Source: Magnolia sinica (taxonomy: Eukaryota > Streptophyta > Magnoliopsida > Magnoliales > Magnoliaceae). From it: 64,000 nucleotides of DNA. The position numbers and the translations under genes are program-made. The DNA is taken from the NCBI RefSeq assembly GCF_029962835.1, contig NC_080583.1, forward strand, positions 48,959,658-49,023,657, in the 5' to 3' direction. The notes under the pieces are model-generated. The model was not told the DNA's origin. It worked only from the letters and a program-made list of their open reading frames with translations, and made no database searches. Shown piece by piece: positions 33,756 to 58,935 of the stretch (the first letter of the stretch is position 1; each line of letters starts with the position of its first letter).

Positions 33756-34002
33756 TGTCATGCCCCGAAATCTGGCACCTAGGTATATCCAACCCCGATT
33801 CCATACCCGAAGGCATGACTTATGTTTTATATGTTTACATTTCATAATCCACGCATATATTGATGAAATGATTCTCATTCATAAAATATAGCTATTCAAA
33901 AATTAAATAATCAAACATTTTTTTAGAGAATAATAAAATATTCATGTTTTGACTATTCAAGATTACCACCAAACTCATGTCATCTCAATACTATCATAAT
34001 AT
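33756..34002 (-). mobile_element. Family-2 5' LTR, first segment
   Basis: TGTCATGCCCCGAAATCTGG onward matches 20691-20940 of the intact LTR. It is cut at AATAT (33998-34002) by a solo LTR. Confidence 0.85.
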
Positions 34003-34753
34003 TGTAATGACCCGGAAAATTTTGTGCCGAGACCCGAGTATTAACTCTATTCTTTCCTTAGTAGCTTATTGGGGTGATTAGCGCTTAACTCGATTGTTTG
34101 TGAAATTTGCATCAATCACTTTAAATTTGATCCGCATGACTCAAAATCTGTAGAATAGTTAGCGCTATGTTACTCTGAAATCTGGGATCCATCGCTAAAT
34201 CCAGTTGCTCTTGGAAATTTTTGGAAGTTTTGGATCGGACCTGGACCACGCGGCGAAAGTCTGATAGCGATGATCTTAGGCTGTTGCGGTCACCATATTG
34301 AACTTGGTCATCACCTCAAAAATCAAGTCTAGATGATGTTCTGGGTCGATTTGATTGAGTCCAGAGTGAAGAGTGTGAGAACGGTTGGAAATTTAATGAG
34401 ATTTTATGAAATCTGAGTCGTGTCGCTTGGGCGACGATTTTAAGCAATCTGACCATTGGATTCTGACCCAATTTCACTCTCTGGTCAGGGAAGGTGGCCC
34501 AGGTATGTCCTTGTGCTTGTGGACCTGATCGAGATTCAGTGACCGTTGATTTGAGTGTGGTCCGCCATGGCTGATCTGAAGATTCGATCGGTACGAAAAT
34601 TCAGCTTGACCTAGATCCATGGTCAGTGAGCTTAAGTCCGACCTTTCGTGGTAATAGGCCCACCAGAAGTGCTCCGTTGGATCGAGAGAGGCTTGTTTTG
34701 TTTATACCCTAAGTATACCTTGGCCCTGGGGTTATTTTCATCAATGTTAGGCC

Positions 34754-34761
34754 TATTTATA
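34754..34761 (+). promoter_or_regulatory. TATA box of LTR A
   Basis: TATTTATA is conserved at the same place in the other two family-1 LTRs (52175-52182, 56572-56579), about 750 bp inside the LTR. It is followed by pyrimidine/GA-rich leader-like sequence. Confidence 0.5.
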
Positions 34762-36686
34762 GGCCTTAAAACCCTAGCTCTCTTTTCCATACGAATTTTC
34801 CTAACCCTAGCTAAGAAAGAGAGAGGAAAAGAGAGAGAAAGTGAGAGAGAAGTTGGTGAATCATCTTAGATCCTTTCCTGTTCTTCTTCATCCTTAAACC
34901 TTCACTTTTGAATCGTTATTCCGGCATTTCTGAGTTCATCTTTGAGTAAGTTAACCTAACCCTAATCTGTGTTAGAGCTTAGAATAGTCTTTGTGTTGTT
35001 GTAGCTCATTTCTATTCTTGCTTTAGGTTATCTTGTCACCGTTGACGAAGACAAATCGTCTGAAATTAGTTCGGTGTTCTTTTCTGGATTAAGGTGCGGA
35101 CTTTAATCGTATAGGTTATGGTTTTCAAGGCTTTCAATGCCAGTTAATGGTTTATTCTTGTTATGAATGAGATTTCACATGCCAAATGTTATGTTTATTT
35201 TGTGTTCCTGATATGCATGTGTTATATTGAGATTTGTGTATTCTATGTGTATGTATAAAGTACCGTATGTGTATAAAATATGAACTTGTGTTTGCCATGA
35301 TTACTTGTTGTGTACTTATGCTAATGGTATGTGCGGTAACTCCTTGGTAAAAGGAATTGTCCAAATGCGTGTATTTCAACATACGTCATGTATGTTGTAT
35401 TATGTATTCTAAGTGTTTGTAGAAATGCGTGAATGAACTAAAGTGTAATATATTATACTAATTACGGGCGTTGAGAAATGATTCTCAACACTCCTATTAA
35501 TGTGTATGATTTCCTACTTGCAAGTCATATTCCTTGTTGTTTAATTTCAAGTCTTACTGGTGCTTAAATCCATGTTAAGTTGATATTCTTCAAATGCTTA
35601 CGTACTACATGACGTGAGTTGTTGTTCCATTACTATTCTAAATTGTAGATATGAATATCTGTTGTAGTGGAATGTGTGTGGGACTATGAATAGTCCAGGA
35701 AATTAGTAATCGGCCTTAAGTTCGTGGCTGAGATTCCTTTCGCCACGTAGGACGTGATTAGACGAACCCGAGTCGTATTAGAGTTTGTCGGCATTGGTTT
35801 GGCCATGCGGAGTGTTTGCGTACTCTATGTCGTTCAACCCAACGTGCGCTCGTGCTAGTCGAGTTCGTCAAGTAACCTGATTGTCCGATGTATGTTCACT
35901 ATGTATGGACGCTATTGTTTGAATCTAGGGTACCAAACTTACCGATGAAATCTTGTTAACCATGGTACCTTGATCCGCTAAGACTCATGAGCCGGACATG
36001 GTGGTATGGGACACCGTGATCGAGCTGTCGGCCTACGCTGGGGTGACGAGCCTCCCCGTAGTGACCAGTGAGCAACCAAACTCGTGAGCCAATTATGGTG
36101 GTATGGGACACTATACTCGCGCTATCGGCCTACATTGATTGGTGACGAGCCCTTTGTAGTGACCTCGAGCATGCCTGGATACCGCAATGAGGTAACGAGC
36201 CTTATGGTGGTAATGAGAGTATGATAGGCGTGCATTGATTGGTGAAGAGCCCTTTGCAATGACCTATAAACATATGATCGTATGAGATGTCTAGGATTGA
36301 CGACCCTAGAATGGATCACTGTTTGGATGGTGATATGAGGAAGGTACCTTAGCTTCCCAATCCTGCTATATGAAAAGGACTAAAACAACTTGGCAATCAT
36401 GTTCATGCACCACATTTGCATGTGCTTTGTAGACGTGGTGCACTTTGAGGCGATGTCATGCGTAACATAAGATGAAGACGCTGAGGGTGTATGTCCGAGG
36501 GTACGCATCATTCTTCATACATCCTTGCATTAACAAGAGTACTTAGGACCTGTTTAATTGTTCTGCCTTATCATTACTGCTTGATTGAACTGATAACATG
36601 TTAACCTTTGCTTTATTGTTCCACTGAGTTGATCACTCACTCCCACGTTCTGGGGCGTGTTAAACACCCACTAGACTCTGTCTTAG

Positions 36687-36778
36687 TTGCAGATGTTGAT
36701 GATACCTTTGAGGCAGAGCGGGAGATCGAGGATGATGAGGCTGCTTTCTCTTTCATGCAGTTTTCAGACGGGTTCTAG
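36687..36778 (+). other. Conserved short acidic reading frame in the family-1 LTR
   Basis: After an acceptor-like GTCTTAG the frame reads ADVDDTFEAEREIEDDEAAF, then SFMQFSDGF and TAG. It is kept in the LTR copies ending at 54199 and 58603. The third copy differs from the others by a 9-bp in-frame indel and several substitutions. A donor-like GTAAGTT lies at 34946. It may be a relic of an ORF or a spliced LTR transcript; function unknown. Confidence 0.3.
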
Positions 36779-37109
36779 TGAGCCTTGTTCTGATGCGAGG
36801 GATGTTGGGATTTCTTTTGGGAATTTAATGATGTAATTTGATACTTATAATTTTGATAGCAACACTTGTATTACGACCTGGTATGTGTATGTATTTCAGA
36901 GATTCGCACATTTACACATATATTTCTTTAAGTCTTCCGCTTTCTTTCTTCACTTATCCCTGAATTATATCTGCACTTTGGCTTAATCTATTCCATGTTT
37001 TATGCACTAATACAGACAACATACATCCATCATTAAATATGTTGCATAAGTGATGTTTTGGAACTCGGGAGCTGAGTTATGTTCGACCCCCGAATTTCAG
37101 GGCGTTACA

Positions 37110-37473
37110 AATATACTTAATGTTTATTACACTTATTTAGAAAATGCTAATGAAACAAAATAAATAAAAGTAAATCTCTTTAAGCGCCTCCACGAGATCC
37201 TGATACTAAAATTTTAAAATCCCAACAGGGTAAGCTGCGAAGCCTAGTGAGTAATCTTAACATAGGTTTAAAAATAACATCATACAATCTGAATAAAACA
37301 TACTAAAAGATATAATATCTATTTAGGTAAAGCAACAGATGAGGAGACGAGGAGATTAATAAAAAAATTTTTCCAAGTAAATTCAAAGAAAACTGAATGA
37401 ATGAAATCAACATATGCTAAAATCCACAATAACAAATGAACAAACAAATATATGTAATATATATATATATATA

Positions 37474-37529
<56 letters not shown>
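37110..37529 (-). mobile_element. Family-2 5' LTR, second segment, ending in (TA)n
   Basis: It continues the LTR from AATATACTTAATG, matching 20936 onward. The (TA)n tract from about 37457 to 37529 is where the Mutator-like element is inserted. Confidence 0.8.
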
Positions 37530-37532
<3 letters not shown>

Positions 37533-37904
37533 TCCTGCTCACCTACGGTGCTTAAGTACGAGCTCCGTTAGGAGCCGTTGGATGCAAAACGGTGGCTGGG
37601 ATGAAGCAGCCGTGTAGCAGGAGACTCTCCGTGGAGAAGACTCGCCACGGCTGTTTTTTCGGACGCACGCCCAACCTTATGAAGTGACGTCTACAAGTTC
37701 TGTGGGCCACACCGTGATGTGTGCTTTGTATCTACACCGTCCATCCATTTGGACAGACCATATTATGGCATGATGCAAAAAATGAATCAGATGCAAAGCT
37801 CGACAGGACCCCACCACAAAAAACAGAGGAGAGAGTGACGTCCACCGTTAAAAGATTATGAGGGCCATGACAGGATTTGTTCTGCCAAATAATTAACATT
37901 TAAG
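37530..37904 (+). repeat. Left terminal inverted repeat of the MULE
   Basis: It pairs with 44090-44476 reversed. It includes GCTTAAGTACGAGCTCCG, the CGGACGCACGCCCAACC block and the GTGGGCCACACCGTGATGTG core, which is the same motif family found in the MITEs of the window. Confidence 0.9.
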
Positions 37905-38219
37905 CTTTTCATGTCTGCTTTAACACATGATCCGGCTGAAATCTCAAATAAACATCACGGTGGAACTTTAGAAGGTTTCAACGGTGGGTGTTACTCTCAC
38001 CGCTGTTTTCTATGGTGGGGTCCACCCCAGCCTTGGATCTGCCTCGTTCTTTGGACCATGCTCTAAAATGATCTCTCCAAATGTATGGACGGTGTTGATA
38101 CAACACATACATCATGGTGGGCCCATAAAAGTTGGTGACGCCACAGCCTAGCCGTATCCAACCCCCCTGTCGCACACGAATCCTCCCTGGATTCGGATTG
38201 CGTCCTAACCGCGCCCGGA

Positions 38220-38660
38220 CGGTAGGGCTATGTGGGGCCCACTATGATGTAAGTGTTTTATCCACGCCATTCATCGCTTTCTTCATATCATTTTAAGGCA
38301 TGATCGTTAAAATCAAGCAAGTCCACAGCTGCAGTGGAGCACAAAGTGGGGATTGAACGTCCATCTTTAAAAACTTCTTGGGAGTACATTACTGGCTATT
38401 TGTGTTTCAGTTCAAGCTGATGTTTGTGTTTTCACTTCATCCACAAGCAGTGACCTTATGAATAGGTTGGATGGTAAAAAAACATCACGGTGGCCTGAGA
38501 AAGGTTTCAATGATGTGTAATTATCACTTAAGCTTTCTTTCATGTGGTCCACTGGAGCCATGGACATGCCTCGTTTTTTGGATGATATCATAAAATAATC
38601 TGATAAAAGTGATGAACGGCATGGATAAAATACTTACATCACGGTGGCCCCAGAAATCCC
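38220..38660. repeat. Foldback MITE-like block inside the MULE
   Basis: The left arm TGTGGGGCCCACTATGATGT (near 38232) is inverted at the right (CATGGATAAAATACTTACAT then CACGGTGGCCCC, near 38620-38650), with TTTTAAGGCATGA-type text next to it. No ORF. Confidence 0.55.
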
Positions 38661-38926
38661 AACCCGAACATATTACCATTCACGCATGTCTAAAACCTCT
38701 CTCTTCTTTGCGAGCTTTAAAAGCTCTCTCGTCCTCTTGCCATTCTTTAGCAATCTACTTTCTCATTCTCTTGTCATTCTTTAGCAATTTACTTCTCTCT
38801 CTCCATCTTTCCACCACATCTCTGTACGAACGACATCAAGAAGAGATTGGGTTGCGGCGTCAGGGGCCAATCCCATCCACCAACCACAGTGATAGAGGGA
38901 GTGGTGAATTACCTTCAATTGGAAGG
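38661..38926 (+). promoter_or_regulatory. Putative non-coding leader exon of the transposase transcript
   Basis: CT-rich leader-like sequence ends at GGAAG|GTATTCTC (donor at 38927). An acceptor TTATAG ends at 40389, directly before the transposase ATG at 40391. A spliced 5' UTR is common in FAR1-type MULEs. Inferred only from the splice-like signals. Confidence 0.35.
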
Positions 38927-39451
38927 TATTCTCATATTCATTTACCCATCTTCTTTGTGTGGCTGATTTTCATGTGATAATTTATAATTGTCTTATTATT
39001 ATTGACAATGAGCATACAACGGATTCATATGGTGAGTCTCATCACCATGAGTCATGTTCCAAAGCTTCCATGGGCCTAAAGAAATTTCCAATGGTGGGTG
39101 TGACCTCTTTAGCTTTTCGATCTTCCTATTTTTAGGCTCGCTTTCTGAATTGAAATGGCATAGCTAATTGATGGGCCTCGAGGCTTTAGAAAAAGCTCGA
39201 CTCATGTGGGACCAGGCCATCTCAGCCCCGCTTTTGGTTTCTTTCATTATCCTTCTCTAGAGCATAGATCTTCGCCGTTGGTTCTCGTTTTAAATCAATA
39301 GGCCCCTGGTTCCTACCTTTGGTATATTTCTTGAGAAGTGTAATAGATAAAGACCATTCATCAGGTGGTCCACAGCTTGCACACACATTAAGCCGGCCCA
39401 CTTATCATTGGCCACACGTGTACCAGTAAAAGGGAGAGAAGGAAAAGCTAT

Positions 39452-39569
39452 CCAGTATCTTGAGTTTCAAAATACACGTGCGGAACATCATTAGATGGGC
39501 CATGGCATGTCCAGTATCTTGAGTTTCAAAATACACGTGTGGACCATCATTAGATGGGCCATGGCATGT
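39452..39569 (+). repeat. 59-bp tandem duplication
   Basis: Units 39452-39510 and 39511-39569 start CCAGTATCTTGAGTTTC and differ at only about two positions (GCGGAACATC versus GTGGACCATC). It lies in the MULE, upstream of the transposase. Confidence 0.9.
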
Positions 39570-40390
39570 TTGTTGTGACCTCCACCTGATATCATCCACA
39601 CACATGGCACGTGTGCTGTAAAGATTTCTCCTTTTCCTTTGTTTTCAAGCCAGGAAAAAAAAAGCGAGGCATGCTTATGTAGTCCTTTTCTGTTTCAGAG
39701 AAATGCTGCAAAGCGCATGATATGTGGCCCACCTAAGCCAGGCTGACGTGGATTACTTTTTGGTCGATATGGAATGTGCAATCAGTCTTCTACTGATAGG
39801 CCCACCTGACCAAGTTTGATGGTGGGGTGGTTTGCCCTCTTTGAATAGACGGGCCATCTGCCATCTATGCAAGGAACCCACATGGGTATTTTGGTCCATT
39901 CCAAATGTGCTGATTGGCCCACCTAAGAAGCCCATCTAAGTAGAGATGTCTGAACTGGGGCGTTTCCACGGGAACAAAAAGAGCCGTGGCTTGGGTAGAA
40001 CTGGAAAGGTTTCAACAACAGGCATTCCCTTCCCACTATTTTCTGATACGTGGCCCACTTGAGTTTTGAGTCTTTGTATTTGCATTTTTCCTTACTGAGG
40101 TCTATGTGACCTTATGAGTAGGTTGAATGGGCTAATCAATGTCATAGTGGCCTTACAAAATTTTTGATGGTGGGTGTCATTGTTGGGCTCATGTCTTTCT
40201 AACTGGGCATATTAATCTGGAAATTGATCATTTATAATTGTCTTGTTATTGTTGACTTTGGACCGTTTAATTTTTTCATAAATCTGAAATAGAAATATTG
40301 ATTTTTGTTATGAGTTGTGTTCATTTACCAACTTTTATATAATTTCATGATAAACTATATCAAAACTTTTTTTTGTTATGAGTTATAGAA

Positions 40391-42568
40391 ATGCACGAGA
40401 ATTTAATGGCGCAAGTTGGCACAACCTCTATCCGTCGTTGGATTCCAGAAGTAGAAGAGGGGTTGAAACCAATAGTTGAAAAGACAACTTTCTCTTCAGT
40501 TGATGCGGCGTTTAACTTCTACAACCATTATGCAAAGAAGGCAGGCTTCAGTGTTCGTAGAGGATCAAATAAATACAATAAGAGTCAAGAAGAGATCTGG
40601 AAGATGTTTGTATGTTCGAAGGAAGGGACGACAGATAACAAGGTACAAATGAAGCATGGTGTAGTAAAGAGGCGACGGAGTATTACTCGAGAAAGTTGTA
40701 AAGCTCGCATGACAATTAAAAAAGAGGGCAGTGGACCAAACTATATAGTGAAAAAGTTTGTTGAGGAGCACAGTCATGAGTTAGCAACTCCTCGAAAGAA
40801 ACATCTTCTTCGATCACATCGTGAGGTTTGTAATGCGCAGAAGAATTTGGAAAATACATTCACTCAAACAGGCATAGGCATTTCGCAAACTATGAATGTT
40901 TTAGCAATTGAATCAGGTGGTTACGAAAATATTGGATGCATTGAACAAGACATGAGAAATTATGAAAGAGATAAAAGAAAAGAAACCAAGGACCATGATG
41001 CTCAACTATTGTATGAACATTTTTCTGAAATGAAGGAATTGGATCCATCGTTCGCATATAATGTGAAGGTTGACGTGGAGGGCAGATTAACACATTGTTT
41101 TTGGGCTGACCCGATTTCACGTAAGGCTTATCATCACTTTGGTGATGTTATAGTATTTGACACCACGTACAATACAAACCACTATGAGTTAATATTTGCA
41201 CCATTTACAGGGGTTAATCACCATGGGCAATCAATTATACTGGGTTGTGGTTTTATCCATAATGAGACCACTGAATCTTTTATCTGGTTGTTTGAGAAAT
41301 GGTGTGAAGCAATGCCAGGGGACCCACCGAAAGCGATCATAACAGATCAAGATCCAGCGATGACAAAAGCCATTGCTATTGTATTTCCGAATGCTTTCCA
41401 TCGTTATTGTATTTGGCATATTTTGCAGAAGGTCCCTGAAAAGTTAGGTCACATAGCTTTCAAAGATGAATTTAAAGTACCTTTTTATGATAGCATATGG
41501 AATTCTGAGAAGCCCGAAGATTTCGAAGTAAAATGGAGCAAAGTTATTGAAGAAAATGAGTTGGATCATAATGATTGGCTTGCTTCTTTATTCAACATTC
41601 GTCACAAATGGGTACCAGCATATCTAAGACATGTTTTTTTTGCGGGTATGTCTAGTAGCCAACGAAGTGAAAGCACGAATGCATTTTTTCGTAAATATGT
41701 GTCGAAGAATAACTCGTTAATGGATTTCATAATTCGTTTTGATCGTGGAGTAGCACGACAGAGACACAATGAGTTAGTTGCCGATCATGAAACGATTAGT
41801 AGCAAGCCAAAGTTGAAAACTTTATTCGCCATGGAGAGAGAGCTTGGAGAGACTTATACTCGGTCTATTTTTTATAAATTTCAAGAAGAGTTGTATGAAA
41901 GCACTATTTATACTGCAATTCTTTTACAAAAGATGGAAGGCGTTTGCATTTACAATGTTGGAGTATGTGAAGGAACATCTCCCGAACGGCTAGTTGAATT
42001 CGAGATGGAATCTAAACAAGCAAAATGTAGTTGCTTAAAATTTGAATTTGAGGGCATACCATGTAGGCACATATTATGTATACTACGACAATCTCGGATA
42101 CCCAATTTGCCAGACCACTATATTTTGAAAAGATGGACAAGGGATGCTAAACTGGATTTTGTTTACGAAGCGAGTAGTGTGGAGTTAAATACAGAGAAAC
42201 ATGAATCGTATGCTCTTCGATATAGCAATTTGTTAGACATTTCTAGAAATCTTGCCAAAGAAAGCGCTAATTTTAAAGAGACATATCATATGTGTAAAGA
42301 AGGGCTACAAGATATTCTCAAACGAGTTCAAGATCAGAAGTTGGTTGCTGGTGAGACATTGGTGCCTAAAAATAAGAAACAAATAAAGAAAATTACTAAA
42401 GTAATCATTAAAGACCCGGTGCGTGCTAAAACTAAAGGAAGTGGAAAAAGATTAATTTCTGAAAGGGAAAAGGTTGCTCGTAAGAAAGATAAAAGAAGAT
42501 GCAATGGATGTGGGAAGTGGGGTCCTGGCCATGATAAACGTAATTGTCCAATATGGAAAAAACTGTAA
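40391..42568 (+). CDS. FAR1/FHY3-type Mutator transposase, 725 aa
   Basis: This is an uninterrupted frame. Residues about 35-145 form a FAR1-type WRKY-GCM1 zinc-finger DNA-binding domain (AAFNFYNHYAKKAGFSVRRG, FVCSKEG, RESCKARM, HSHEL). Residues about 250-350 are the MULE transposase core. The catalytic triad appears as Asp257 (VIVFDTTY), Asp319 (IITDQDPAM) and Glu427 (SSQRSESTNAFF). HRYCIWHI (residues 337-344) is the usual C/H pair. A SWIM zinc finger follows (Cys546, Cys548, Cys558, His560). The C-terminus has a CX2CX6HX4C knuckle (CNGCGKWGPGHDKRNC). The protein binds the TIRs and catalyses cut-and-paste transposition in the nucleus. FAR1 and FHY3 transcription factors descend from such transposases, but the TIR context makes this one a mobile-element gene. 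The ORF can end at TAA 42566-42568, or be spliced at CT|GTAAGT (42566) to an exon at 42674. Confidence 0.92.
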   Translation: MHENLMAQVGTTSIRRWIPEVEEGLKPIVEKTTFSSVDAAFNFYNHYAKKAGFSVRRGSNKYNKSQEEIWKMFVCSKEGTTDNKVQMKHGVVKRRRSITRESCKARMTIKKEGSGPNYIVKKFVEEHSHELATPRKKHLLRSHREVCNAQKNLENTFTQTGIGISQTMNVLAIESGGYENIGCIEQDMRNYERDKRKETKDHDAQLLYEHFSEMKELDPSFAYNVKVDVEGRLTHCFWADPISRKAYHHFGDVIVFDTTYNTNHYELIFAPFTGVNHHGQSIILGCGFIHNETTESFIWLFEKWCEAMPGDPPKAIITDQDPAMTKAIAIVFPNAFHRYCIWHILQKVPEKLGHIAFKDEFKVPFYDSIWNSEKPEDFEVKWSKVIEENELDHNDWLASLFNIRHKWVPAYLRHVFFAGMSSSQRSESTNAFFRKYVSKNNSLMDFIIRFDRGVARQRHNELVADHETISSKPKLKTLFAMERELGETYTRSIFYKFQEELYESTIYTAILLQKMEGVCIYNVGVCEGTSPERLVEFEMESKQAKCSCLKFEFEGIPCRHILCILRQSRIPNLPDHYILKRWTRDAKLDFVYEASSVELNTEKHESYALRYSNLLDISRNLAKESANFKETYHMCKEGLQDILKRVQDQKLVAGETLVPKNKKQIKKITKVIIKDPVRAKTKGSGKRLISEREKVARKKDKRRCNGCGKWGPGHDKRNCPIWKKL

Positions 42569-42673
42569 GTGCTTAATTCGTTTTATTCATTTATATTTGA
42601 TTGATTCTTTAATTTTGTTTCTTAAATTATTATATCCTTATTTTATTCATTCTTTAAAATGATTTACTTGCAG

Positions 42674-42880
42674 AATAAGATCTCCCGCATGCCAAGAACC
42701 ATCAATGAATGAAGTTGATATGTGTGAAGAACCATCAGATGACGAGGTTGATTGTATGAAGAACCATCGGATGATGAGGTTGATATGCATGAAGAACCAT
42801 CGGATGACGAGGTTGATATGCATGACGAAACATTAGATGATGAGGTGGAGACGTTAGGTCATGACACACCACTATCTTAA
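42674..42880 (+). other. Possible last transposase exon with acidic 11-residue repeats, frameshifted
   Basis: After TTGCAG, the DNA has three to four 33-bp units encoding EEPSDDEVDMH-like text (about 42725-42840), ending near 42880 in an HDTPLS-like frame and TAA. A one-base loss after GAGGTTGAT (about 42750) shifts the frame, so a spliced product would end early, at TAG near 42836. Without splicing the protein stops at 42568. Confidence 0.45.
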
Positions 42881-44089
42881 TAATGTAATCAATAACATTT
42901 TTTTAATTTACCCATTTACTTGGTAATTATGTAAACATTTTTTAATATCAGGCTAACCATTCCATAGAAAACAATAGTGATTGAACTCTCACCATTAACA
43001 ACTTCTAAGTCAACACTGTAATGTTTATTTGTCATCCAAGCCGTTGATATGTTAAAGTGGACCATAAAAAATAAAAATTATGTTGATTCAAAGCTTTTTT
43101 CACCCACATGAAGTTTTTAATGGCCAATCACCACAAACATTATCTGAAAAAAAAAAAAAAAGGGAATTGCGTAAATATATAATACATAATCAATGTGAGT
43201 CCTACGGTTAGGATTGCACCGTGTTGTGTGGGGCGGGCCTCACCTAATCCGCTCTGGGGAAGACAGCCTTTCGTGTCATGAAACATCAGTTCCTCTATTA
43301 GACAGTCTGACCACGTTACCAATGGAGGCGGATTGCATCTTACCCTCTCTGGGGCCCACTGTGATGTAAGTTTTTTATCCACGCCGTTAATATTTTCTCT
43401 CAGATCATTTTAAGGTATGAGATAAAAAATGAATTAGGTTCACAACTCCAGTGGACCACACCAAAGGAAGCTGCAATGATATGACACTCACCGTTGAAAC
43501 ATTTCTAAGGGACACCATGATGTTATTTTACTATATAACCTATTCATAAGGTCACGTAGACGTGGATGAAACGAAAACATAAATATATGCTTGATCCGAA
43601 ACTTCTCCAGATCCTAAGAAGTTTTTAATTGTGAACGTTTAATCCCCAATTTGTGGTCCATTTAAGCCTTTTATGTGGCTATTTTTTTATGTCATGGCTT
43701 AAAATAATTTGAGAGAAAATCTCAACGGCATGGATAAAATTATTACATCACGGTGGGTCTTAGAGAGCCCTACCTGAATGGTAACGCAATCCTCGTCCCA
43801 TTACCAATACTGGCAGATAAGCTTGCGGATGGGGATTCCAAAGGAACTTTCCGTCATGGTTAGTTAGGTGGGGTCCACCGTGATGTTTAGGGAAGATCCA
43901 CCACGTTCATCGGTTTTGAAAGATTAATTTAGACGATGGGCCAAAAAATGATATAAATCCAGAGCTTAAGTATGCCGTACATTAGTAAAAAGTGTGTATG
44001 TAAATTCTTACCATTGAAACTTATTTGGGTCCACCATAATGTTTATATCCCATCCATACCGTTCATAATGTCATTCTTACTAAGATAAA
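42881..44089. other. MULE 3' internal region with MITE-like foldback
   Basis: Non-coding. About 43300-43800 is a foldback with GGGGCCCACTGTGATGTAAG (near 43353) and its inverse (ATTACATCACGGTGGG, near 43740). Another core, GTGGGGTCCACCGTGATG, lies near 43868. Confidence 0.55.
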
Positions 44090-44473
44090 CTTAAATGTTA
44101 ATTATTTGGCAGAACAAATCCTGTCATGGCCCTCATAATCTTTTAACGGTGGACGTCACTCTCTCCTCTGTTTTTTGTGGTGGGGTCTGTCGAGCTTTGC
44201 ATCTGATTCATTTTTTGCATCATGCCGTAATATGGTCTGTCCAAATGGATGGACGGTGTAGATACAAAGCACACATCACGGTGTGGCCCACAGAACTTGT
44301 AGACGTCACTTCATAAGGTTGGGCGTGCGTCCGAAAAAACAGCCGTGGCGAGTCTTCTCCACGGAGAGTCTCCTGCTGCACAGCTGCTTCATCCCACCAC
44401 CGTTTTGCATCCAACGGCTCCTAACGGAGCTCGTACTTAAGCACCGTACGGCACGGTGCGCAGGAGACCGGGA

Positions 44474-44476
<3 letters not shown>
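44090..44476 (-). repeat. Right terminal inverted repeat of the MULE
   Basis: The reverse complement of the left TIR, ending GGGACTC at 44476. It has an extra short GC-rich stretch near the tip (CCGTACGGCACGGTGCG) that is shorter in the left TIR. Confidence 0.9.
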
Positions 44477-44526
<50 letters not shown>

Positions 44527-44661
44527 ATATCAAGTGAGAGATACTCACCTTTAAAAAATAAAAACTCCCCTTTTTTTTCTTCCTTTTTCTCTTTTGTCTT
44601 TTTTCTTTTCTTTTTCTCTCCTCCTTTTTATTCTTCCTTTTTCTTTGTCTTCACTCTCTCT
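44477..44661 (-). mobile_element. Family-2 LTR segment right of the MULE
   Basis: (TA)n to 44523, then TGTAATATCAAGTGAGAG and the CT-rich tract, matching 22140-22280 and 54953-55090. Homology stops abruptly after CACTCTCTCT at about 44661. Confidence 0.8.
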
Positions 44662-45181
44662 GTTTGTATCAGATTTCTGCCTGAATGGCCCGATAGGCGT
44701 CGAATCATGCAAAGGGGCCGATCGGGGCATTTCCAGTGGGGCCCAGGGGGGACCCACATCTTTTTAGTGCTAAGGGGCCATGAGGACCTCGCCCAAATGG
44801 CGAGCCATCGCCGGTTCGGCGAGCCCTCGCCGATCAGCGGGCCAGGCCGGGCGGGCTGGCTCGGGCTGACGAATGTATGGCCTAGTGTGGCCCACCCTTC
44901 CACGGTTTGCTGCTTTAAACTCTTTCTAAGCCCGACTTCCTTCACAATCATCCCTCCCAAGCTCTCTTTTCCTTCAAGTTCTTCTTCAAACTCCTCCAAA
45001 TCTCTTTCAAATCATCTTCTTTCATTTTCGTGCAAACTCTATCCACCCATCTCAAAACCTCACCCCCCCTTGCTGCTTACATCTCCTTTTCTTCTCATTT
45101 GAGCTCCCAAATCCTCCCTTGGGATCTCAAGTGTGTGGAAGCTTCCCATTTCTTCCTATTTCTCTCTTTCTCTCATTTTCC

Positions 45182-46470
45182 ATGGCCCTCTTTGAGTTTA
45201 TCACGGCCATCTTTTCCATCTCTACTCTTCTTTCTTTGATGGGGAAGAAGAGAGCGCCCGTGGATGAAGCCGGGCTTAGCCGCCCAACCTATGCACGGAG
45301 GCCAAGAGGTGCCGCCGCGAGCACGACCGCCGCCCGTGAGTTTCAGACCAAGCGGGACCTTGATCCTCAAGCTCCCATTGGAAGAACCTTGTTGGCGGAG
45401 CTATCGCATGGAGTCTATGAAGGCCGTAGAGTCCTTTTTGAGGCTCATGTTGATCCGCGGCTGTTTGGTGAGTTTTTGCTATTGGAGCGCCTGGAAGGGG
45501 CTGGTTGGTGTCCCTTGTTTGAGGGCGAGTATCGCGCGAATGCAAGTACTGTTCGAGCTTTTTATGCCAATATTCGTGATCCTTCACTGGAGCCTCTGCA
45601 GTTTAAGATTTCTTGTGGTAGTGGTCGGGAGGCCACAGTCAACGTTGCTTTGATATCTCGACTCCTGAATGTGCCACTTGGTGAGGTACATGCCAGTGAG
45701 AAGAATTTGAACAGTATGCGCGAGAGGGATTGTCGCACCCGATTTCTGTGTGGTCGTCTGGTCGAATGACAGCCTAATAGAAGTCTTCTAGCTACCAACA
45801 TGACGGACGACTTTCGCTTGCTTCACCACATGTGTACGTTCAATGTATATCCAAGGTGGAGCAACCGCAGCGAGTGTACGCGCCTGATGGTAGATTTTCT
45901 ATATCAGGTGGGGCAAGGAGAGAAGTTGTGTGTGTCGACGTACATCTTGCGTCAGGTTATCCTTATCGCTCGTTCGACTAGGAGGACTGAATCGCTTCCA
46001 TTTGGCCGACTTATCTGTAAGCTTGCTCATGAGTTTACGTATAGGCTTGGAGCAGAGAAGCCGGTTCTTGTTCGTCATATTAATCTGACACCCTTAAGCA
46101 GATGGAGATTGGTCCTCGTCGACAGGCCTCAGAGAGTGAGGATGAGTCAGAGAGTGATGATGATAAGAGTTATGCTGAAGGTGGTGCTGAGATTGAAGCA
46201 GAAACAGAGCAGGACGAGGAAGAGGTTGAGGCACAGGATATGAGTGAGAGCTCTCCTCCTGTGGCACCAGAGCAGAGCGCAGATCAGGCTGCCAGGGATG
46301 CCTGTATTACTCGGCTTGAAAAAGGGCAGGCTGTTCTATGCCAGGATATCATGGATCTTCGAGGCCTTGTGAAGCATAAGTTTAAGAAGGTGACTCGAAC
46401 TCTGAAGTCTATCCTGTGTTGCTTGCAGGATAAGGGTGCCCCACCGCCATCTCCTGATTCTGATGAGTAG
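45182..46470 (+). pseudogene. Extra ORF upstream of gag, putative plant transposon protein (Transposase_32-like)
   Basis: The frame opens at ATG 45182 or 45239 (MGKKRAPVDEAGLSRP). It gives FEAHVDPRLFGEFLLLERL, GWCPLFEGEYRANASTVRAF and SLEPLQFKISCGSGREATVN. This resembles the 'putative plant transposon protein' domain found in proteins adjoining plant retroelements. It is broken by TGA at 45767-45769, continues in the same frame, and shifts once near 46090. The final part is acidic (ASESEDESESDDD, EQDEEEVEAQD) and then helical (ITRLEKGQAVLCQDIMDLRG), with a stop at 46468-46470. It lies between the PBS-like start and gag, an unusual position for a Tekay element. Function unknown. Confidence 0.55.
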
Positions 46471-46753
46471 TTATCGTTGTGGTCGTCCATTGCTTTGTTT
46501 GTTATTTCTTTCTGTGTGCAGTCGCTGTTGGCTTTTGTAGTTGGAAGTTGTTTGTTGTTGCTTGAAGTGTTAGATGTTGTAGTTCTCATGCTTTCCTTGT
46601 CGTGATTCATGTAATGCTGCACTACTTGTATTGCGACAATTTTGTTTAATGGAATGCATGTTGTTTATTTTTGAAGTTGTGCTGTGAATGCTGTGTGGAT
46701 GGATTATGTGGACGTAGAATCTTATATGTTGCATCCTCTGTTGAATGTAGGGT

Positions 46754-49700
46754 ATGCCTCCTAAGGGTTCTAAGACTTCAGCCCGTCTCTCCTTGGTTGA
46801 GTCGCTTGTCGGGGTTCTTCCCCTGAGCGATAGCCAGTCAGATCCACAGACGGGCCCATCTCATGCAGGTGTTGGGCCGACACCTATGGCTCCTCCAGTT
46901 ACGCCTTCGGTTCCTCAGCCGAGCGATGCATCTTCGTCTGCTCCACCGTCTGATAGGTTTGAGTAGATGATACTGTTGATGCAGCAGTAGCAGATTCAGT
47001 AGCAGCAGCAGTTCCTATCTTCCATGGCTGGCATCTTTACTCAGTCAGTGGGAGCGACTCCTCCTACTTCACCTATGCCCCCATCTGGGAGCGCTAGTGC
47101 GAGCGGCACTTTTGAGCGATTCTAGAGCTTACGTCCTCCCACATTTGCGGGTTCTCATAGACTCGAGGAGGCCGAGTATTAGATCGATCGCATATCTAAG
47201 ATGCTGAGACCGCTGCACTGCTCTGAGGTTGAGCAGGTTGAGCTTGCCTCCTTCATGTTTGAGAAGGAGGCCAGTCTATGGTGGGACAGTGTTCTTCGCA
47301 CTGTCGAGGAAGGATTTGAGTGGTCGTGGCAGGCGTTTGAAGTACGCTTCCACGAGAAGTATTTTCCGGTTACGTACCGACATGAGAAGGAGAGTGAGTT
47401 CCTTCACCTCCGCCAGGGAGGGCTGTCGGTGACTGAATATGAGAACCGGTTCACTGAGCTAGGTCGGTATGTTCCTTTGATTCTGGGCGATCAGCCGATG
47501 AGGATGCGGTGCTTTTTTAAGGGATTGAGGCCTGAGATCCGATCAAAGATATGCTGTGCTAGCGTTTCTTCTTATGCGGAGTTGGTGAGCATGTCCTTGC
47601 GAGCAGAGCAGGACGGGGACAGGTCGTCCCGTATGCGAGCACCTATGGTTCCTAGGCCGCGACCTGACTTTCAGGGGCACATTTTCTCGGCAAGAGGCCG
47701 CGGGCAGATTCTCCTCATAGGCGTTCAGCGCCGCCCGCTCAGCAGATGCGAGCTGATCTTCGCTGTTCGTATTGTGGGAAGATGGGGCATTTGGATCGTT
47801 TTTGCTTTTCGCATATGCGGGCTAGTGGTTTTACTCCACCGCAGAGAATTAGCCGTCCGATGCCTCAGGTTATTTCTCCTCCACCTCTTCGTTCAGCACC
47901 AGCTCATCCATCCTTCAGACCTGCAGTACGTAGGTTCAGGCCACCTCAGCGGCCCATGGTTCCTCCGCCGAATCTTCAGCAGCAGGCTCGAGTTCATGCG
48001 CTCTCAGCTGAAGCGCCTATGTCTGACTTGGTGCCGAGATCCTTTGAGGTTACAACGCACATTGAAGGTATTCCCATTTCTATGCTGGTGGATACAGGGT
48101 CCACTACTTCTCTTATATCTTATGCGGCAGTTAGGCGTTTGGGTTTGAGCACTGTTTCTATGCAAGGAGTGACGCTTACTACCGCTACGGGGATTTCCTC
48201 TGATATGAACAAGCGTTGTATGGATTGTTTGGTCGATCTAGGAAGTGGATCGATCCGTGTTTATTTCTTTGTCGCACCTCTTTATCATTACGATGTTATT
48301 ATGGGTATGGATTGGCTCACGAGGATGCGAGTAGAGAATGATTGTGAAGCAAGGTTGGTGACCATCCATGGACCTGAGGGCAAGACAGTTACTTTCCCAG
48401 TTCAGGTCAGTTACCCTCTTCATCTTGATTATTATACTTCTCTGTTGGAGAGTATGGCTGAATCGGCGTTAGTTAGCACGCTGGTAGTTCGGGAGTTTGA
48501 AGATGTGTTTGAGTCAATTCCTGGATTACCTCCTCAGCGCGAGATTGATTTTACTATCAATCTCATGCCTGGTGCGGCGCCCATTTCTTTACCTACTTAT
48601 CGAATGCCTCCGAGTGAAATGGAGGAATTGAAGAAGCAGATAGATGGTTTATTGAATTTGGGTTTTATTCGGCCTAGTGTGTCTGCTTAGGGAGCACCTG
48701 TCTTGTTTGTGAAGAAGAAAGATGGTTCCTTGCGATTATGTATTGATTATCGCAGGTTGAATTTGGTAACTGTGAAGAATAAGTACCCTTTGCCTATGAT
48801 TGATGATCTGTTTGATCAATTGAAGGGAGCACGATACTTTTCCAAGGTTGATCTGCAATCAGGGTATCATCAGTTGCGCGTTAAGAATGAGGACTTGCAG
48901 AAGACCGCTTTCAGGACTAGCTTCGGTCACCATGAGTTCCTTGTGATGTCGTTCGATGTTACGAACGCACCGGCGTGTTCATGGATCTGATGAACAGGGT
49001 GTTTCGGCCATTCTTATTCTGATTCGTCATTGTCTTTATCGATGACCTCTTAATATATTCTGTGAGTCGGGAAGAGCACGGGGAGCACTTAAGAGCGGTT
49101 TTGGATACTCTTAGGAAGAATTAACTTTTTGTGTAGTTCAAGAAGTGTGATTTCTGGAAAGAGGAAGTTAAGTTCCTGAGACATGTGGTGTCCAAGGAAG
49201 GGATAGCTGTCGATCTTGCCAAGGTAGCCGTAGTGCAGGACTGGAAGCAGCCTGGTTTAGTTACTGAGGTAAGGAGCTTTCTGGGTCTTGCAGGTTATTA
49301 TCGATGCTTCATTCAAGACTTCTCGAAGATTGCCAGACCGTTGTCGCAGTTGACACGGAAAGATTTAAAGTTTGCTTGGAATGAGAGGGCGGAGGAAGCT
49401 TTTCAAGAGCTGAAGGACAAGTTGACGTCCGCCCCTGTGCTAGTATTGCCAGAGCAAGGGGTTAAGTATATTATATATATTGATGCCTCTCGCATTGGTC
49501 TGGGTTGTGTCCTTATGCAAAAGGACAGGGAATTGCTTATGCTTCGCGTCAGTTGAGGAAACACGAAGAGAATTACCCTACGCACGACCTGGAGTTAGCA
49601 GCTGTCATTTTCACATTAAAGCTTTGGAGACATTACCTCTATGGTGAGGAGTTCGAGCTCTTTTGGGACCACAAGAGCCTTAAGTATATTTTCACGCAGC

Positions 49701-51387
49701 GTGACTTGAATATGAGGCAGCGCCGATGGATGGAAACATTGAAGGACTTTAAGTTCGATATTTCTTACCATCCGGGCAAGGCGAACCTTGTGGCAGATGC
49801 GTTGAGTCGCAAGAAGGCTATTAAGTTTGTGGCTCCGCTGATAATAGCAGAGTGAGATATGTTGGAGTTTATGTGAGACTTTGAGCAGAAGCTTACGGTG
49901 GAAGAGCCGTATGAGGTTATCGCACACATTCGTGTACAACCCCTTATCGACGAGAAGATCGTTGCAGCTCAGGCAGATGATGAGCTTTTGGCGAAGATGA
50001 GGAAGCGGGTTGGTACAGATGAGAACTCCGACTGGAGTATTAGTTCTGATGGGGGCCTACGATTTCGTGGCCGGTTATGTGTTCGTGACATCCCTGACTT
50101 GAGACGGGAGGTTCTCGAGTTAGCCCATAGTTCTAAGCTTGCGATGCATCCAGGTAGCACGAAGATGTATCGGATATGAGAAGATCTTATTGGTGGGACA
50201 ACATGAAGGTCCATATTGCTGAGTTTGTCTCTCGTTGTCTCACGTGCCAGCAGGTCAAGGCAGAGCATCGCCGACCTCCTGGGTTGCTTCAGCCCATGCC
50301 CATAGCAGAATGGAAGTGGGACTTCATCTCTATGTACTTTATTTCTGGGTTGCCGAAAATGAGGAAGGGATATGACTCTATTTGGGTGATAGTCGGCCGA
50401 TTGACGAAGTTGGCTCACTTCTTACCGATCAGAGTCACAAACTCTGCAGACCAGTTGGCTAGGCTGTATATTAAGGAGATTGTATGTCTGCATGGAGTTT
50501 CCTTGGAGATTGTGTCTGATAGAGACACGCGTTTCACATCTATCTTCTGGACTCGTATTCAGGAAGCGATGGGTGTGAAATTAAAGTTCAACATTGCGTT
50601 TCATTCGCAGACAGATCGGCAAACGGAACGTATGAATCAGATCCTGGAAGACATGTTGCGAGCTTATGTTTTGGATTTCAAGGACAGTTGGGATGATTGT
50701 CTCCAGTATGCAGAGTTCGCATATAATAACAGTTTCCAGGGGAGTATTGGCATGGCTCCCTATGAGGCGTTGTATGGTTGCCTGTGCAGAGCACCGCATT
50801 GCTGGACAAAAGTTGGTGAGCGTAGTTTGATTGGCCCGGAGTTGGTGCAGGCGACTTCAGAGAAAGTTGACATCATTCGACGTCGACTCCTGATAGCCCA
50901 GAGTAGGCAGAAGAGTTATGCTGATACGAGGCGGCGACCGCTTGAGTTTGAGGTTGGAGACCATGTATTTCTGAAGGTCTCTCCTATGAAGGGAGTTCTG
51001 CAGTTCGGTAAGAAGGGAAAGCTCATGCCGAGATTTATTGGTCCATTTCAAGTTCTGGATTGAGTGGGAGCGGTAGCATACCGCCTTGCTTTGCCCACAC
51101 CTCTTGCGGGCGTGCATAATGTATTTCATGTTTCTATGCTGAAGAAGTACGTTCCTGATCCTTCGCATATTATCAGTTGGGAGCAAGTGCAGTTGAGCGA
51201 GGATGCCACATATGTACTGCGACCGACGCATATTCTTGACAGGAAGGAGCAGGTATTGCGTTGCAAGGTCATCCCTCTTGTGAAGGTGCTATGGACGCAT
51301 CATAGTGAAGAAGAGGCTACTTGGGAATATGAAGCTGAGGTTAGAAAGAGCTACCCTCAGATCCTTGAGGAATATGAGAAGGTATGA
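46754..51387 (+). pseudogene. gag-pol polyprotein of a Tekay-like chromovirus, disrupted
   Basis: Order of parts: gag (MPPKGSKTSARLSL start; capsid text SLWWDSVLRTVEEGFEWSW about 47275-47330), CCHC knuckle (CSYCGKMGHLDRFC, about 47764-47805), protease (MLVDTGSTTSLIS, DTG at 48091-48099), RT ([18 protein letters not shown]; catalytic IDD near 49038-49046), RNase H ([13 protein letters not shown]), integrase HHCC, and core Asp (50320), Asp (50518) and Glu (50626), a D-35-E spacing. It ends in a chromodomain-like tail (ILDRKEQVLRCKVIPLVKVL, EEEATWEYE). Breaks: TAG at 46964, 46988, 47000, 47123, 47180 and 48688; TGA/TAA/TAG between 49019 and 49137; TGA near 49854 and 51061; frameshifts near 47700, 48970, 49525 and 50170. 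The element is dead in this copy, but complete in domain content. Confidence 0.9.
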
Positions 51388-51423
51388 ATTTCGAGGACAA
51401 AATTTTCTTTAAGGGGGGTAGAT

Positions 51424-54400
51424 TGTAATAACCCAAAAAATTTTGTGCCAAGACCCGAGTATTAACTCTATTCTTTCCTTAGTAGCTTATTGAGGTAATT
51501 AGCGCTTAACTCGATTGTTTGCGAAATTTGCATCAATCACTTTAAATTTGATCTGCATGACTCAAAATCTGTAGAATAGTTAGCGCTATGTTACTCTGAA
51601 ATCTGGGATCCATCGCTAAATCCAGTTGCTCTTGGAAATTTTTAGAAGTTCTGGATCGGATCTGGACCGTGCGTCGAAAGTTCGATAGCGATGATCTTAG
51701 GCTGTTGCAGTCACCATGTTGGACTTGGTCATCACCTGAAAAATCAAGTCCAGATGATGTTCTGGGTTGATTTGATTGAGTCCGGAGTGAAGAGTGTGAG
51801 AACAATTGGAAATTTAATGAGATTTTATGAAATCTGAGTCGTGTCGCTTGCGCGACGATTTTAAGCAATTTGACCGTTGGATTCTGACCCAATTTCACCC
51901 TCTGATCAGGGAAAGTGGCCGAGGCATGTCCTTGTGCTTGTGGACCTGATCGAGATTCGGTGACCATTGATTTGAGTGTGGTTCGCCACGACTGATCTGA
52001 AGATCCGATCGGTATGAAAACTCAGCTTGACTTAGATCCATGGTCAGTGAGCTTAAGTCCGACCTTTCGTGGTAATAGGCCCACAAAAATTGCTCCGTTG
52101 GATCGAGAGAGGCTTGTTTTGGTTATACCCTAAGTATACCTTGGCCCTGGGGTTATTTTCATCAATGTTAGGCCTATTTATAGACCTTAAAACCCAAGCT
52201 CTCTTTTCCATACGAATTTTCCTAACCCTAGCTAAGAAAGAGAGAGGAAAAGAGAGAGAAAGTGAGAGAGAAGTTGGTGAATCATCTTAGATCCTTTCCT
52301 GTTCTTCTTCATCCTTAAACCTTCACTTTTGAATCGTTATTCCAGCGATTCTGAGTTCATCTTTGGGTAAGTTAACCTAACCCTAATCTGTGTTAGAGCT
52401 TAGAATAGTCTTTGTGTTGTTGTAGCTCATTTCTATTCTTGCTTTAGGTTATCTTGTCGCCGTTGACGAAGACAAATCGTCTGAAATCAGTTCGATGTTC
52501 TTTTCTGGATTAAGGTGCAGACTTTAATCGTATAAGTTATGGTTTTCAAGGCTTTCAATGGCAGTTAATAGTTTATTCCTGTTATGAATGAGATTTCACA
52601 TGCCAAATGTTATGTTTATTTTGTGTTCCTGATATGCATGTGTTATATTGAGATTTGTGTATTCTATGTGTATGTATAAAGTACCGTATGCGTATAAAAT
52701 ATGAACCTATGTTTGCCATGATTACTTGTCGTGTACTTATGCTAATGGTATGTGCGGCAACTCCTTGGTAAAAGGAATTGTCCAAATGCATGTATTTCAA
52801 CATACGTCATATATGTTGTATTATGTATTCTAAGTGTTTGTAGAAATGCCTGAATGAACTAAAGTGTAATATATTATACTAATTGCGGGCATTGAGAAGT
52901 GATTCTCAACACTCGTATTAATGTGTATGATTTTCTACTTGCAAGTCATATTCCTTGTTGTTTAATTTCAAGTCTTGCTTATGCTTAAATCCATGTTAAG
53001 TTGATATTCTTCAAATGCTTACGTACTACATGACTTGAGTTGTTGTTCCATTACTATTCTAAATTGTAGATATGAATATCTGTTGTAGTGGAATGTGTGT
53101 GGTACTATGAATAGTCCAGGAAATCGGTAATCGGCCTTAAGTTCGTGGCTGAGATTGCTTTCGCCACGTAGGACGTGATTAGACGAACTCGAGCCGTATT
53201 AGAGTTGTCAGCAGTGGTTTGGCCACGCGGAGTGTTTGCGCACTCTATGTCGTTCAACCCAACGTGCGCTCGTGCTAGTCGAGTTCGTCAAGTAACCCGA
53301 TTGTTCGATGTATGTTCACCATGTATGGACGCTATTGTTTGAATTTAGGGTACCAAACTTACCGATGAAATCCTGTTAACCATGGTACTTTGATCCGCTA
53401 AGACTCATGAGCCGGACATGGTGGTATGGGACACCGTAGTCGCGCTGTCGGCCTACATTGGGGTGACGAGCCTCTCCGTAGTGACCAGTGAGCAACCAAA
53501 CTCGTGAGCCAATTATGGTGGTATGGGACACTATATTCACACTGTCGGCCTACATTGATTGGTGACGAGCCCTTTGTAGTGACCTCGAGCATGCCTGGAT
53601 ACTGCAATGAGGTGACGAGCCTTATAGTGGTAACGAGAGTATGATAGGCGTGCATTGATTGGTGACGAGCCCTTTGCAACGACCTATAACCATATGATCG
53701 TATGAGATGTCTAGGACTGGCGACCCTAGAATGGATCACTGTTTGGATGGTGATATGAGGAAGGTACCTTAGCTTCCCAATCCTGCTGTATGAAAAGGAC
53801 TAATAACAACTTGGCAATCATGTTCATGCACCGCATTTGCATGTGTTTTGTTGACGTGGCACACTTTGAGGCGATGTCATGCATAACGTAAGATGAAGAC
53901 GCTGAGGGTGTATGCCCGAGGGCACGCATCATTCTTTATACATCCTTGCATTAACAAGAGTACTTAGGACCTGTTTAATTGTTCTGCCTTATCATTATTG
54001 CTTGATTGAACTGATAACATGTTAACCTTTGCTTTATTGTTCCACTGAGTTGATCACTCACTCCCACGTTCTGGGGCGTGTTAAACACCCACCAGACTCT
54101 GTCTTAGTTGCAGATGTTGATGATACCTCTGAGGCAGAGCGGGAGATCGAGGATGATGAGGCTGCTTTCTCTTTCATGCATTTTTCAGACGGGTTTTAGT
54201 GAGCCTTGTTCTGATGCGAGGGATGCTGGGATTTCTTTTGGGAATTTAATGATGTAATTTGATACTTATAATTTTGATAGCAACACTTGTATTACGACCT
54301 GGTATGTGTATGTATTTCAGGGATTTGCACATGTACACATATATTTCTTTAAGTCTTCCGCTTGCTTTCTTCACTTATCCCTGAATTATATCTGCACTTT

Positions 54401-54530
54401 GGCTTAATCTATTCCATGTTTTATGCTCTGATATAGACAACATACATCCATCATTAAATATGTTGCATAAGTGATGTTTTGGAACTCGGGAGCTGAGTTA
54501 TGTTCGACCCCCGAATTTCAGGGCATTACA
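51424..54530 (+). mobile_element. 3' LTR (LTR B) of the family-1 element, 3107 bp
   Basis: It starts TGTAATAACCC directly after the polypurine tract and ends TTTCAGGGCATTACA. It has the same length as LTR A. It is followed by AATATACTTAATG, the same right flank as LTR A. The TATTTATA box lies at 52175-52182. Confidence 0.88.
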
Positions 54531-54875
54531 AATATACTTAATGTTTATTACACTTATTTAGAAAATGCTAAAGAAACAAAATAAATAAAAGTAAATCTCT
54601 TTAAGCGCCTCCACGAGATCCTGATACTAAAATTTTAAAATCCCAACAGGGTAAGCTGCGAAGCCTAGTGAGTAATCTCAACATAGGTTTAAAATAACAT
54701 CATACAATCTGAATAAAACATACTAAAAGATATAATATCTATTTAGGTAAAGCAACAGATGAGGAGACGAGGAGATTAATAAATAAAAATTTTCAAAGTA
54801 AATTCAAAGAAAACTGAATGAATGAAATCAAAATATGCTAAAATCCACAATAACAAATGAATAAACAAATATATG

Positions 54876-54947
<72 letters not shown>

Positions 54948-55820
54948 GTATGTATGTATGTAATATCAAGTGAGAGATACTCACCTTTAAAAAATAAAAA
55001 CTCCCCTTTTTTTTCTTCCTTTTTCTCTTTCGTCTCTTTTCTTTTCTTTTTCTCTCCTCCTTTTTATTCTTTCTTTTTCTCTGTCTTCACTCTCTCTCCT
55101 CACTTTCCAACGTGAATGACCAGTACGGAACCTCTCTTTTTTGTTTTTTGTTTTTTGTTTTTGTTTTTTTGTTTTCTTTTAACCTCTCTCTCTCTCTCTC
55201 TCTCTCTCTCCTCACTTCCTCACCTCACCTCACAACATATTCCACTTCCACATTTCACAATTTCACAATGCATGATCTCTCTCATGCCTCCCTTTTTATA
55301 AGCTCCTGTCACACATGTGGCATGTGTGAAAGAGAGCCTTTAATCTCTTAACATTTTCTAAGTTTTACTTTTATTTTACCATTCAAAGCACGTGTTCCAC
55401 ATTGCTTTCATTCAATGCACATATTATGCACTACATGTGTGCCATATGTGTGTCACATGTGTGCATGTGATGTATTTGATGCATGCATGCCACATGTGAA
55501 AGGTATGTGTGCATGATGTGTTTAGTGCATGTGTGTGGTTCTTATGTATTTGATGCATGCATGCCACATGTGTGCATGATGTATGTGTGATAAGTGTGCA
55601 TGAATGAAAGTTTGTACATGGTGTTTAGTATTTGATGCATGAATTAACCTATGGTTTTGATGTATTCAATGGTACATAAATGGATGATGTAAATGGATGG
55701 ATGGATCAATGTATAATAGAAGGACGGATGGATGTATGGATAGATGGATGGATAAATGTATGGTTAGATGAGTTCATGTGTGATTGGGGAAGGGACTGCA
55801 TGATGTACCTGTGGATTAGT
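54531..55820 (-). mobile_element. Family-2 5' LTR, third segment
   Basis: It matches 20936-23060 of the intact LTR, but also duplicates 37110-37529 plus 44477-44661. It contains (TA)n at 54878-54952, a CT-rich tract, GTTTTTT runs near 55140 and GATGGAT units near 55690. It ends at TTAGT (55816-55820). Confidence 0.82.
54878..54952. repeat. (TA)n microsatellite
   Basis: A long TA run followed by TGTA and TGTATG steps, without the MULE that occupies the equivalent tract at 37529/44477. Confidence 0.9.
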
Positions 55821-58800: not shown

Positions 58801-58935
58801 ACTTTAGCTTAATCTATTTTATGTTTTATGCACTAATACAGACAACATACATCCATCATCAAATATGTTGCATAAGTGATGTTTTGGAACTCGGGAGCTG
58901 AGTTATGCTCGACCCCTGAATTTCAGGGCGTTACA
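55821..58935 (+). mobile_element. Solo LTR C of family 1 (3115 bp)
   Basis: It starts TGTAATGACCC, ends TTTCAGGGCGTTACA and is flanked by a perfect TTAGT duplication (55816-55820, 58936-58940). The empty site GTGGATTAGTGGTGAG occurs near 23050. It is more diverged from LTRs A and B than they are from each other (by eye). TATTTATA lies at 56572-56579. Confidence 0.9.

Follow-up and report, generated by a model that had tools for sequence, protein, structure and literature searches.

Transposons that dwell in TA tracts of plant genomes are already known. MuTAnT of Medicago truncatula, in the excerpted account of PMC4486113, has 218 copies, nearly all of them in TA tracts, with 14 of the 218 lying outside perfect TA and pointing to 9-nt duplications; the putative autonomous AutoMuTAnT of the same account is 4.9 kb long, encodes a Jittery-like transposase in a five-exon, 833-aa open reading frame (ORF), and is flanked by 59 and 27 TA repeats. 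In guayule (AgS-MULE/gSaTar) and rice (rSaTar, including Micron), autonomous-type and non-autonomous Mutator-like elements (MULEs) occupy microsatellites and form non-nested arrays, and two models of the tracts appear in the excerpts of PMC5907723: a TA-specific transposase with gap-repair expansion, after maize TAFT, and circular intermediates with filler. Here we describe a 6,947-bp MULE with outer terminal inverted repeats (TIRs) and a single long ORF at positions 37530-44476 of a 64,000-nt stretch of the Magnolia sinica genome (RefSeq assembly GCF_029962835.1, contig NC_080583.1, 48,959,658-49,023,657, forward strand), which as a whole we call the window. Our reading, to which we give a probability of roughly 85%, is that the element is a cut-and-paste DNA transposon whose transposase has a FAR1-type DNA-binding domain and whose family integrates at TA microsatellites. 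The family is new; no published account of it was found in the open-access literature searched.

MuTAnT is the closest system described so far. The element resembles MuTAnT and AutoMuTAnT, as the excerpts of PMC4486113 describe them, in being a MULE with a single Jittery-like transposase ORF, in its modular foldback TIRs, in having TA on both sides, and in its many short non-autonomous relatives. The insertion preference of MuTAnT for (TA)n is shared as well, with TA of at least 10 bp at 35 of the 37 family ends that have a recognisable tip. The differences from AutoMuTAnT (4.9 kb, 833 aa, terminal mask GGGGTTTGCTAGAACA) lie in the length of the window element, 6.9 kb, in its product of 725 or 778 aa, and in its tips, GAGTCCCGG; moreover, no counterpart of the MuTAnT copies outside perfect TA with 9-nt duplications (PMC4486113) was seen among the 40 family ends examined here. 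Because the family tips, GAGTCCCGGTCTCC, differ from the terminal mask, we do not assign the family to MuTAnT; judged by its termini, it is another family of the MuTAnT kind.

With AgS-MULE and SaTar, the window family shares an autonomous-type element, 400-bp TIRs, microsatellite flanks, and non-nested arrays joined by microsatellite, according to excerpts of PMC5907723. Guayule tracts are often non-TA, whereas those of the window family are mainly TA, and the 10-bp duplications described in the same source for guayule and rice copies outside microsatellites were not noticed among the 40 best-match ends. Maize TAFT, compared here by description only (excerpts of PMC4486113 and PMC5907723), is similar in its TA flanks and in short empty sites that expand after insertion, as a related empty site on C12 suggests for our family. 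In pineapple, the short Mutator-like Ac-mMITEs also lie in (TA)n, where insertions next to one another often produce clusters; the excerpted report (PMC8449440) found no autonomous partner for them, whereas an element with an uninterrupted ORF is present here. Finally, the large barley MULE Hvu_Abermu prefers TA-rich sites, but these are not microsatellites, its 9-bp duplications are visible, and it belongs to a clade other than Jittery (PMC9168764, in excerpt).

Flanks of the family copies

The genome (1.84 Gb, 127 contigs) was searched with the left TIR, and the best 40 of 4511 candidates were scored; the ranking was by TIR similarity and not by flank, and more distant copies may differ. The 40 matches comprise the window pair, 15 other pairs, and 8 single ends, and flanks were read for all 38 ends outside the window and for the window's two. 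A recognisable tip is present at 37 of the 40 ends, in agreement with the original prediction that other copies would share them. At 36 of these 37, a dinucleotide tract of at least 10 bp starts no more than 6 bp from the tip, as against 123 of 20,000 random positions of sample loci L009-L029, and at 35 the tract includes at least 10 bp of TA. The proposed preference for TA tracts is thus upheld. One end (L059) has a GT tract in place of TA. The exception to the tract rule, L044, has no more than TATA, next to a GT-rich run that is imperfect. By eye, TA or TA plus GA also adjoins the three ends at which no tip was recognised (L047, L058, and the left end in the window). Where a TA flank was detected, it is never shorter than 10 bp, the scoring having covered runs of at least 8 bp.

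Two sister copies of the transposase fall outside this count. The sister at 19.5 Mb of C12 has a TIR match and (TA)18 on its right, and on its left the 1.5 kb examined holds a (TA)34 tract but no TIR match. For the C9 sister, the left end was not found, with no TIR match in L077, a locus that starts about at the tip position expected from the window layout. The bare GAGTCC motif was rejected as a genome-wide search pattern for the family because it is too short, with 259,620 forward and 258,531 reverse sites and still more (about 296,000) for the backward control.

Structure of the element and its transposase

The outer TIRs (37544-37910 versus 44448-44084) are identical in 360 of 367 alignment columns within the window (98%, 2 gap columns), so that the near-identity claimed at the outset holds, and long terminal inverted repeats are characteristic of the MULE superfamily. 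A weaker inverted repeat, 77% identical overall, extends inward to 37544-38654 and 44448-43348, and smaller foldback modules recur in both arms. The family tip is GAGTCCCGGTCTCCTGCGCACCGTGCCG or a near variant in most copies, its first bases being absent in some. The right end of the window element carries the full tip; the left end begins with GAGTCC and continues with a version 14 nt shorter, and the missing 14 nt are present at the right tip and in most other copies. As a separate observation, 12 of 20 sample loci from C11 (L012, L013, L015, L017-L019, L023, L025-L029) contain sequences about 65-85% identical to subterminal modules of the element, and MULE-like foldback repeats of this kind therefore seem to be abundant there.

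The transposase ORF has no stop and its 725-aa product matches three Pfam domains, MULE (1.6e-32), FAR1 (3.2e-19), and SWIM (3.5e-7). Two more distant transposases from this genome share its three acidic residues, D257, D319, and E427, which we take to be catalytic, as well as the SWIM Cys/His residues and a C-terminal Cys/His knuckle. The protein thus has the MULE domain, acidic triad, and SWIM finger of MULE superfamily transposases, and the description of a stop-free, 725-codon gene with FAR1 and SWIM domains was accurate. The gene may be somewhat longer than that. The TAA stop of the ORF sits inside a GT-AG splice donor, and none of the five copies compared has lost the GT or the AG. Probably, therefore, the gene has a small second exon, with a predicted product of 778 aa (Table 1). 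Short tandem repeats occupy 42694-42849, in and just past this predicted last exon. Single-sequence structure prediction of the transposase gave a mean pLDDT of 34.3. A PDB sequence search returned three weak matches, all of them to a single protein (best E 0.0064; query residues 608-664 only), which we take as chance, and matches to the NCBIfam IS256 and IS1249 transposases were far under their cut-offs.

Host FRS proteins also carry FAR1 and SWIM domains, and in principle the ORF could be a domesticated FAR1/FRS-type host gene with incidental repeats on either side. This is very improbable, as the ORF lies between TIRs that are 98% identical, and elsewhere in the genome TIR matches enclose sister copies of 93-98%.

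Table 1. Coordinates in the window of the element, its predicted gene, and its flanking and related tracts
Feature	Position	Strand	Remarks
Left flanking TA tract	37457..37529	.	(AT)9 at 37457-37474, one interruption, (TA)27 at 37476-37529
Left outer TIR	37530..37910	+	tip GAGTCC, 14 nt shorter than family tip; 37544-37910 98% identical to right TIR
Left arm, inner part	37911..38654	+	weak inverted repeat with right arm, and foldback modules
Transposase ORF, 725 aa	40391..42568	+	FAR1 42-132, MULE 253-347, SWIM 542-562, Cys/His knuckle 704-719; D257, D319, E427
Predicted intron (GT-AG)	42565..42673	+	overlaps ORF stop codon
Predicted second exon, 778-aa product	42674..42836	+	end computed from 778-aa length
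Right arm, inner part	43348..44083	-	weak inverted repeat with left arm
Right outer TIR	44084..44476	-	full family tip GAGTCCCGGTCTCC
Right flanking (TA)23	44477..44522	.	
(AT)30 in tandem paralog	54878..54937	.	related empty site

The insertion site and its paralogs

As predicted, the element sits in a (TA)n tract, with (AT)9 and (TA)27 to its left and (TA)23 to its right. These flanks, a (CA)13 at 22117, and an (AT)30 at 54878 are the only TA, CA, or GT tracts of at least 8 units in the 64-kb window. The host sequence around the element is duplicated in tandem, and the paralog (51422-55097) is without the element. Its left side (51422-54947) is 95.8% identical to 34001-37526 over 3528 columns, its right side (54913-55097) is 95.7% identical to 44477-44661 over 185 columns, and the (AT)30 sits between the two flank homologies. 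On the simplest reading, the insertion would be later than the host duplication; excision of the element from the paralog is a possible alternative.

Two empty sites had been claimed, one at 54878, which the paralog bears out, and one at 22111, which fails. The (CA)13 at 22117-22142 adjoins the right-flank homology, but the left-flank homology stops at 21250. This third host copy thus has about 0.87 kb of extra host sequence ahead of its tract, and another homolog, in L023, likewise has a longer version; the (CA)13 marks a homologous position, though not an empty site that is clean.

Two other features of the surroundings were seen. A host segment of about 3.1 kb is present in three copies, 92-96% identical, at 34001-37109, 51422-54530, and 55820-58935. 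Beside the right flank, 44662-51421 contains ORFs with gag/protease- and integrase-like sequence (by eye), which suggests a Ty3-type long terminal repeat (LTR) retrotransposon inserted in the same host repeat.

Tracts as targets and as possible products

A (GA)n tract of 8-31 bp stands beside the tip at 8 of the 37 recognisable ends, always in the orientation that continues the GAG of the tip and never as (TC)n (8 of 8; two-sided p of 0.008 if the ends are independent, two of the eight belonging to one element). From its orientation, this looks like slippage growth out of the tip. Another sister, C12:51697078, is flanked by long TA on either side, with (GA)n at one of them, and the related empty site in L027 holds only ATAT between the flanks. 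It is therefore possible that tracts are not only targeted but also lengthen during insertion or later. Pressed to its limit, this becomes the expansion model of TAFT, in which a few TA units suffice for insertion, gap repair or later slippage expands both sides, and long tracts are mainly a product of the element. The ATAT site and the oriented (GA)n speak for it, as does the precedent in maize as summarised in the excerpts of PMC5907723. However, the window paralog has (AT)30 without an element, and the two sides of the L027 homolog are 94% and 87.5% identical, which leaves room for an independent history of its tract. We regard this stronger version as a serious possibility, although somewhat worse than even.

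The tracts also hold other elements. Two further transposase lineages were followed at one locus each. That of about 60% identity (L072) has an intact 771-aa ORF enclosed by TIRs with the tip GAGGAACGCTCAGC, and its two flanking tracts are (TA)35 and (TA)17; that of about 40% identity (L073) also has an intact ORF, with (TA)35 directly ahead of its tip, TGGGAAAAGGTACTATACGG. No TIR partner for the second end of the L073 element was found in L076 (64509200-64512200). A 2.04-kb element with a tip similar to that of L073 lies in sample locus L029, where it forms part of an array (L029:4073-6768, a chance find in a 200-kb sample) that runs TA, 2.04-kb TIR element, (TA)16, 0.53-kb TIR element, TA. 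In addition, at 4 of the 40 family ends (L044, L049, L058, L063) the neighbour across the tract resembles the 0.53-kb element of L029 and the repeat beyond the (TA)35 of L073. Thus, this genome too has non-nested arrays linked by microsatellite, like those described in guayule and rice. A test of tract pairs placed 3 of 9 above the 99.9th percentile of 17,836 random pairs, the random maximum being higher still; it was partly post hoc, as the window and L029 elements had been seen beforehand.

Arrays of uninterrupted elements joined by TA tracts, together with the compound or GT-rich flanks of some family copies, recall the SaTar model, in which a circular intermediate with microsatellite filler recombines homologously into an existing tract. 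Nevertheless, ordinary cut-and-paste into TA fits a TA length that does not fall below 10 bp and the almost exclusive use of TA, and we consider a circular intermediate unlikely.

Decay and probable recent movement

The transposase search of the genome gave 64 matches (1087 candidates, 62 scored). Among seven full-length matches of at least 89% identity, the window copy alone has no stop, and stops or frameshifts interrupt the close sisters of 96-98%. Another close copy, on C10 and in pieces of 94% and 98%, is stop-free in both but has frame-shifting gaps. The transposase is clearly not single-copy, as three sisters differ from it by only about 1% in DNA: over about 2350 bp, the window copy is separated from those on C9, C12 (C12a), and C10 by 25, 23, and 25 substitutions, and from a second C12 copy (C12b) by 78. 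Private substitutions number 5 in the window copy, 19 in C9, 13 in C12a, 17 in C10, and 67 in C12b, with few sites common to several copies. Having the fewest, the window copy stands closest to the common ancestor of the five, and of the transposase copies compared in its subfamily it has decayed least. Changes of C>T and G>A account for 13 of 19 private substitutions in C9, 13 of 13 in C12a, 11 of 17 in C10, 33 of 67 in C12b, and 3 of 5 in the window copy; the spectrum in C9, C12a, and C10 would fit the decay of methylated, silenced copies. Inside the ORF, the private changes of the window lineage are 2 synonymous and 2 non-synonymous.

Movement can also be judged from shorter copies. In three dispersed 2.7-kb copies (C19, C7, C18), all six ends are identical over 73 bp starting shortly inside the tip, with two of the six differing by one base in the tip itself. 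Their match coordinates leave no room for the transposase gene between two such TIRs. Because the ends are identical and the copies too short for the gene, recent movement in trans is suggested. We rejected TIR identity as a clock, since gene conversion can keep TIRs alike. For the family, sisters about 1% apart and the identical ends of the three 2.7-kb copies are evidence of fairly recent mobility, in line with the recent activity suggested in the original prediction.

Whether the window copy itself can move is a separate matter. It was called potentially autonomous, a description that its uninterrupted ORF and conserved key residues support and its shortened left tip weakens. It could instead be an immobile relic whose ORF is intact by chance, as that tip and the breakage of all other full-length close copies would allow. 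Against this stand the same ORF and residues, the fewest private substitutions of the five copies compared, and the empty paralog. On balance, we lean away from a relic while giving it substantial weight.

Discussion

The cut-and-paste reading can be cast as a sequence of steps. The transposase (725-778 aa), to judge from its domains and the TIRs, would bind the TIRs of about 0.37 kb and cut at the GAGTCC tips. Insertion would be into TA runs, as the flanks of the copies examined show, and would make a 9-10 bp duplication that is invisible because it is itself TA. Target site duplications of 8-11 bp are usual in the MULE superfamily, and such a hidden duplication fits the finding that detected TA is never shorter than 10 bp; this supports ordinary MULE cut-and-paste without proving it, since tracts vary in length. 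Repair or replication slippage may then alter and often lengthen the tract and, at some ends, grow (GA)n from the GAG of the tip, as the orientation of these tracts and one empty site indicate. Short copies without room for the transposase gene were probably moved by the same enzyme in trans.

Several observations weigh against parts of this account. First, the flank evidence comes from the best 40 TIR matches of 4511 candidates. Second, none of the 40 ends showed a visible duplication of 9-10 bp in complex sequence, with scoring confined to runs of at least 8 bp. Third, a fourth 2.7-kb copy (C5) differs by 6 and 4 bases in the 73 bp that are identical in the other three. Fourth, the shortened left tip may have immobilised the window copy. 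Finally, the need for a long tract beforehand is unsupported at the related empty site that holds ATAT.

The last point bears on a broader and more tentative idea, which we think doubtful but worth stating, that the element makes its own microsatellite home. A few TA units would suffice for insertion, repair and slippage from the GAG tip would grow (TA)n and (GA)n, and these would become landing pads for other MULE lineages. If this is true, three transposase lineages would jointly build and colonise microsatellite arrays in one genome.

With the window element, the known TA-targeting MULEs gain a family that has an uninterrupted transposase ORF, which makes the basis of microsatellite targeting testable in a heterologous assay. 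Further, the tip-oriented (GA)n and the shortness of one related empty site are relevant to a question left open by the SaTar paper, whether the tracts are targets of these transposons, their products, or both.

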